Source: Acidimicrobiales bacterium (GTDB lineage Bacteria; Actinomycetota; Acidimicrobiia; Acidimicrobiales; SZUA-35). Taken from it: a DNA stretch of 33,764 nucleotides. Made by a program: the position numbers and the translations under genes. The notes beneath the pieces are model-generated. The model saw only the letters and a list, made by a program, of their open reading frames with translations, was not told the DNA's origin and made no database searches. Shown here piece by piece: positions 6,887 through 20,511 of this stretch; position 1 is the stretch's first letter; every line of letters begins with the position of its first letter. The DNA is taken from contig JAHEJO010000010.1 in assembly GCA_024638805.1 (NCBI GenBank), positions 1-33,764 of the forward strand. The letters are read 5' to 3'.

Positions 6887-7144
6887 TCATCCGGGAGTGT
6901 CGATCACCTGGGCGAACTGGACACCGATCAGATCGTTGTCGCGGCCTGTGATCGTGACATAGGTCGACACGTCGGCCAACTGGAGGTCACCGTTGAACAA
7001 GGTGGAGATGTCCGCCACCTCGAACCAGCCCTTTTCGGCGTCGGGGTTGCGATTCACGATGTCGCCCACCTGGGCGTCCATGAGCCGCACCTTGGCCGTC
7101 TTGATGATTCGCCGTCGCAACGGAACCTCCTGTGCGATACCCAA
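6887..7144 (-). CDS. Small protein of unknown function (85 aa)
   Basis: Open frame with plausible composition, divergent from the gene at 7257. Confidence 0.55.
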   Translation of the reverse strand: MGIAQEVPLRRRIIKTAKVRLMDAQVGDIVNRNPDAEKGWFEVADISTLFNGDLQLADVSTYVTITGRDNDLIGVQFAQVIDTPG

Positions 7145-7208: not shown

Positions 7209-7224
7209 TCGAACTCCCGTTCGA
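7209..7224. promoter_or_regulatory. LexA/SOS box (TCGAAC-TCCC-GTTCGA)
   Basis: Perfect dyad matching the actinobacterial LexA consensus TCGAAC-N4-GTTCGA, 32 bp upstream of the ATG at 7257. Confidence 0.75.
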
Positions 7225-7256
7225 ACGGTGTCACACCCCTTGGCCATCATGGGTTC

Positions 7257-7580
7257 ATGACTTTCACCTACGTCCCCGCCATCGATCTCACCGACCGAGC
7301 ACTCAGGTCCGATCCCAGCCCGGTCTTCGCCGTCACGCTCAGCTCGGGTCGCACCGTCGAGGTGACCGAGACCGACTTCTACGAGCCCGAAGGGCCCCTC
7401 ACCACTTTCTTTCGCAGCGGGTCGGCCACCAGGACGATCGACGTGTGGAGCGAACGCGTGGCCAGCTTCCGCACCGCCGAAATCGTCTCGATATGCCAAT
7501 CCGATGTCCGATCGCAGGTGCATCCGTCAGCGCAGAATCTCGACGGCGACCGGCCGGCGCTCACCGTCGTGCCCGCGTGA
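7257..7580 (+). CDS. Small protein of unknown function (107 aa), candidate SOS-regulated gene
   Basis: ATG downstream of the LexA-like box; open frame to 7580. Confidence 0.6.
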   Translation: MTFTYVPAIDLTDRALRSDPSPVFAVTLSSGRTVEVTETDFYEPEGPLTTFFRSGSATRTIDVWSERVASFRTAEIVSICQSDVRSQVHPSAQNLDGDRPALTVVPA

Positions 7581-20474: not shown

Positions 20475-20511
20475 TGGCCGCACCGACCGATCCTCGAACG
20501 ACCGGTCGATC

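Follow-up and report, generated by a model that had tools for sequence, protein, structure and literature searches.

We describe a gene encoding a 107-aa protein, within a 33,764-nucleotide stretch of DNA (hereafter the window) from what is probably, by its gene content, an acidimicrobial actinobacterium, that is very likely inducible by DNA damage and whose promoter, as read from its sequence, is probably controlled by both LexA and PafBC. The reading of this gene as damage-inducible through a two-input promoter is given a probability of about 0.72, the case for PafBC being the stronger and the case for LexA good. All the evidence is sequence, from which we infer LexA and PafBC binding, induction and the transcription start site. 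The features concerned are listed in the table.

Features of the intergenic region upstream of the 107-aa gene and of its two flanking genes (positions in the window)
Feature	Position	Strand	Basis or remark
Divergent gene, 77 aa from TTG 7120	6887..7120	-	dN/dS 0.06-0.13
Shine-Dalgarno AGGAGG of divergent gene	7126..7131	-	sequence read directly
LexA-type operator TCGAAC-TCCC-GTTCGA, TCGAACTCCCGTTCGA	7209..7224	none	direct read and same-position boxes in orthologues
Incidental perfect palindrome CCGTTCGAACGG	7217..7228	none	overlaps the LexA-type box; not kept in orthologues
PafBC/RecA-NDp '-26' element TGTCACAC	7229..7236	+	published consensus; kept in 13/13 clade members
-10 hexamer CATCAT	7245..7250	+	exactly 8 nt beyond the -26 element
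107-aa gene	7257..7580	+	probably leaderless; dN/dS 0.16-0.34 vs orthologues

A PafBC/RecA-NDp-type promoter

The RecA-NDp/PafBC promoters of mycobacteria follow the consensus tTGTCRgtg-8nt-TannnT (PMC5656591), and their -26 element is recognised by PafB via sigma adaptation (PMC11804915). An arrangement of this kind, TGTCACAC-N8-CATCAT, which the sequence-only reading had missed, was found at 7229-7250, 4 bp downstream of the LexA-type box; it includes the TGTCR -26 element, the 8-nt gap and the -10 hexamer, and is devoid of the usual -35. Two departures from the mycobacterial motif were noted, the -10 hexamer starting with C rather than T and 'gtg' being replaced by 'CAC'. The ATG is located 28 nt from the start of TGTCACA and is not preceded by a Shine-Dalgarno sequence, and the transcript of the 107-aa gene is probably leaderless by this layout.

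In the genome, the pattern TGTCACA-N9-YANNNT has eight occurrences, whereas the reversed control has three. It precedes recA and other repair genes (sbcD and recC), a DUF222 gene, a small ORF with an SNase gene, a 334-aa gene and the 107-aa gene itself, while the eighth place has no plausible gene downstream. At five of these eight places an ATG stands at precisely +28, a layout that implies transcripts without a leader. The 334-aa protein (L054, G000:C49:70151) has no Pfam match and its gene, which carries the same presumably leaderless promoter with the ATG at +28, is a candidate damage gene. The DUF222 gene is found at L055 (G000:C65:36175), and at L057 (G000:C97:347) the PafBC-type promoter stands before a 68-aa ORF, after which comes a staphylococcal-nuclease-like gene.

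Regarding the regulator itself, two relatives (G003 and G010) show the gene order pafA-pafB-pafC, and other relatives have WYL genes in tandem. The search for a WYL or PafC gene in the assembly of the window's genome, which is 85% complete, found none, and this may reflect an assembly gap. One match to the PafC profile, on contig C162, was rejected as its sequence is that of a DeoR-like regulator.

The LexA-type box and the choice of its target

The box upstream of the 107-aa gene matches the actinobacterial consensus TCGAAC-N4-GTTCGA with 0 mismatches, as had been claimed, and the distance of 32 bp claimed between the box and the ATG at 7257 was likewise confirmed. The match is weaker than it looks, its spacer TCCC being atypical. 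The sequence-only reading had proposed that the genome's own lexA and recA be inspected for the motif, and boxes of the GAAC-N4-GTTC type were indeed found before both: three upstream of lexA (TCGAACAAACGTGCGC, CCGAACATACGTTCTC and GCGAACGTTCGTTCTG), with the GAAC-N4-GTTC core or one change from it, and one upstream of recA (TCGAACAGGTGTTCGG). The lexA genes of four further species of the genus likewise have such boxes upstream. The 7209 box has the same GAAC-N4-GTTC core as these lexA and recA boxes and is in this respect of the LexA type used by the genome itself. By a weight matrix derived from the lexA boxes of the genus and the recA box, it ranks first in the window with a score of 12.0 bits, below the lexA and recA sites (16-20 bits for the sites that built the matrix); the low score is due to the TCCC centre, which is atypical in comparison with the genome's lexA boxes. 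The matrix rank 2 in the window is a one-mismatch LexA-like site at 20494-20509 (TCGAACGACCGGTCGA). At the lexA locus (L007:1700-1870), a LysM-domain gene runs divergently from lexA, and TGTCACACCCC lies directly upstream of the start of the LysM-domain gene, with no -10 at the expected spacing.

Two further species of the genus, G010 and G012, have orthologues of the 107-aa gene with 64-67% identity; none was found in the assemblies of two more, G009 and G011, which are 81% and 88% complete, respectively. Both orthologues have a LexA-type palindrome beginning 49 nt upstream of the ATG, namely GCGAACAACCGTTCGC in G010 (19.8 bits, a score reached by 0/400 shuffled upstream regions) and GGGAACAGGCGTTCGG in G012 (14.7 bits, reached by 1/400), and this position is kept though the spacers and the surrounding intergenic DNA differ. 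The check on orthologues that had been suggested was thus positive within the genus, the box being absent from most other genera: GAAC-N4-GTTC is present upstream of five of the 13 members of the clade sharing the PafBC-type promoter, and most members outside the genus have no LexA-type box. One member from another taxonomic family (L109, in G264) has the LexA-type TCGAACACCTGTTCGC followed by TTGTCACAG-N8-GAGACT.

These data bear on a reading in which damage induction proceeds through the PafBC-type promoter alone and the palindrome is bound by another dimeric repressor or activator. The persistence of the PafBC element without a LexA-type box in most clade members outside the genus would fit such a view, as would the difference in centre between the 7209 box and the genome's lexA boxes. 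However, the same-position palindromes of G010 and G012 fit the lexA-box matrix of the genus well, and the member from G264 has a LexA-type box of its own, so that we consider PafBC acting alone unlikely.

A second question is whether the box serves the divergent gene, or both genes. The sequence-only reading had placed a divergent 85-aa ORF at a start 64 bp from the box; an ORF with TTG 7144 does exist, but TTG 7120 is the better start, being preceded by AGGAGG on the minus strand and matched by the codon at which the orthologues begin, which widens the gap to 88 bp. In favour of this view, three species of the genus share the divergent layout, and strong purifying selection acts on the divergent gene. 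Against this, its start is remote from the box and has its own Shine-Dalgarno sequence, whereas the box is only 4 bp from the -26 element and 32 bp from the ATG of the 107-aa gene; moreover, the 107-aa family keeps its promoter in other genera, whereas a search of the fetched loci for relatives of the divergent gene gave none. The divergent gene is real, but nothing in this comparison links the LexA-type box to it, and we regard its control by the box, singly or jointly, as quite improbable. The proposal that one or both genes could be damage-inducible is accordingly retained for the 107-aa gene, with its box of the lexA/recA type, its orthologue boxes and its PafBC-type element, and is not supported for the divergent gene.

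We also considered whether the box might be a chance match. The exact motif is present in six copies in the 2.79-Mb assembly (85% complete), four of which are within coding genes, the only intergenic ones being the 7209 box and C177:59311. The reversed-pattern control is a weak null for this motif because TCGA is over-represented, and spacer variation was chosen instead: spacers of 0 to 30 gave 54 places in total, with six for N4 and a mean of 1.6 for the other spacers. The frequency of TCGA, the copies in coding genes, this spacing control and the approximately 1.2 chance matches expected per 33.8 kb at a score of 12.0 bits all speak for coincidence, and the 7209 box by itself is not significant. 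Its positional conservation in the two orthologues, despite their differing spacers and intergenic DNA, is, and makes a chance match very unlikely on the sequences compared. The other intergenic copy, TCGAACAAACGTTCGA (L083:3312-3327; G000:C177:59311), lies directly upstream of TAGTGT and of an ORF of 50 aa, MEQPPVTHADTAEDWEQVRRSVAMLPPGAWALKREQALRALAALIRLLKE, which is probably leaderless, has no Pfam match and is a candidate for a small SOS protein. Finally, the 12-bp palindrome CCGTTCGAACGG could in principle be the true operator, for another regulator, but the probability of this is close to nil, since this palindrome, perfect in the window's genome, is replaced in the orthologues by CCGTTCGCCCAC and GCGTTCGGAACC while GAAC-N4-GTTC is conserved.

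Proposed mechanism and relation to known systems

In the favoured two-input reading, a LexA dimer would occupy the box in unstressed cells, at -48 to -33 relative to the predicted transcription start, and would hinder access to the region needed by sigma domain 4 and the activator. Upon accumulation of ssDNA, RecA filaments would promote LexA self-cleavage, and ssDNA-loaded PafBC would allow the housekeeping RNA polymerase to use the -26 element TGTCACAC together with the -10 hexamer CATCAT. Transcription would then start at or beside the A of ATG 7257 and yield a leaderless mRNA.

The mycobacterial recA promoter offers a close parallel in that a RecA-NDp/PafBC element occurs there together with a LexA box, its P1 being PafBC-dependent and its P2 LexA-dependent (PMC5656591, PMC11804915), and further mycobacterial genes are known that combine a RecA-NDp promoter with an SOS box (PMC8223512). 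The recA gene of the window's genome has the same pair, with the difference that 61 bp separate the first base of its LexA box from the -26 element downstream, whereas the box of the 107-aa gene adjoins that element. Unlike mycobacterial recA, the 107-aa gene has a single, probably leaderless promoter and does not encode any known repair protein. Resemblance to the mycobacterial PafBC regulon (PMC5656591, PMC6789036, PMC11804915) extends to TGTCR at -26, the 8-nt gap to the -10, recA as a target and pafBC in relatives; the consensus of the 107-aa clade reads TGTCACAc/g-N8-CAnnnT, compared with tTGTCRgtg-N8-TannnT in mycobacteria. The LexA regulon of Streptomyces venezuelae, whose operator is tCGAAC-N4-GNNCGa (PMC9380542), shares with the present case the operator sequence and its position near the promoter, and differs from it in that the spacer TCCC of the 107-aa box is atypical for the genus and the product belongs to a family without description.

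We searched the literature for control by LexA or PafBC in this large actinobacterial group and found nothing relevant. If the present reading is true, a conserved unnamed protein family joins the damage response of the group, through a compact natural promoter which would combine LexA repression and PafBC activation on one start site. The PafBC-type promoter (TGTCACA-N9-CANNNT with leaderless starts) would also be extended to the group, so that its damage regulon could be predicted from sequence.

The protein family and its promoter classes

The 107-aa gene is under purifying selection and encodes a small protein of a family without earlier description. The sequence-only reading had seen no recognisable DNA-repair domain in either this protein or the divergent one, and no Pfam or NCBIfam domain above cut-off was detected in them; nor did the 107-aa family have a Pfam, NCBIfam or PDB relative over cut-off that would place it in a known DNA-repair family, or relatives among viral contigs, phages and plasmids. 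Its members share the core sequence DAYQ-EGPLTTFF...IDSWS-R-ASYRTADI-AI-R. Of 396 genomes sampled across the class, 52 have a member, and within the taxonomic family all 39 genomes searched have one. A structure predicted for the 107-aa protein as a single sequence was unusable (mean pLDDT 35.9), and gene neighbourhoods at 33 loci gave no clue to the function of the damage-controlled branch. An accessory cytosolic role in the repair or recovery phase is a guess, and a doubtful one.

In a family tree of 63 members, the 13 whose genes have a PafBC-type promoter group together in a single clade (support 95/81), with members from two taxonomic families. All 13 carry the PafBC element, versus two incidental matches (L029 and L040) among the 50 other members; L029, picked up as PafBC-type by pattern, was rejected since its score places it in the other promoter class and it sits outside the clade. 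The non-damage branch has a promoter of its own with rigid spacing, shared by no clade member, of which the gap-free consensus is AATCCACAGGGTT-N3-CCTCT-N6-CNCACAGG-N10-TANNNT, as obtained from class-wide paralogues (L030-L033, L035-L047 and L113-L137) and from L061:1650-1720 in the window's genome. We tentatively suggest that the 107-aa protein represents a damage-controlled branch, the other being under a second, activator-type promoter, and that the whole family might answer to replication or damage signals via two regulators. The CACAG repeat of the non-damage promoters occupies the -26 position of the PafBC promoters, and CTGTGGATAA, a DnaA-box-like inverted repeat, is present upstream in approximately half of them.
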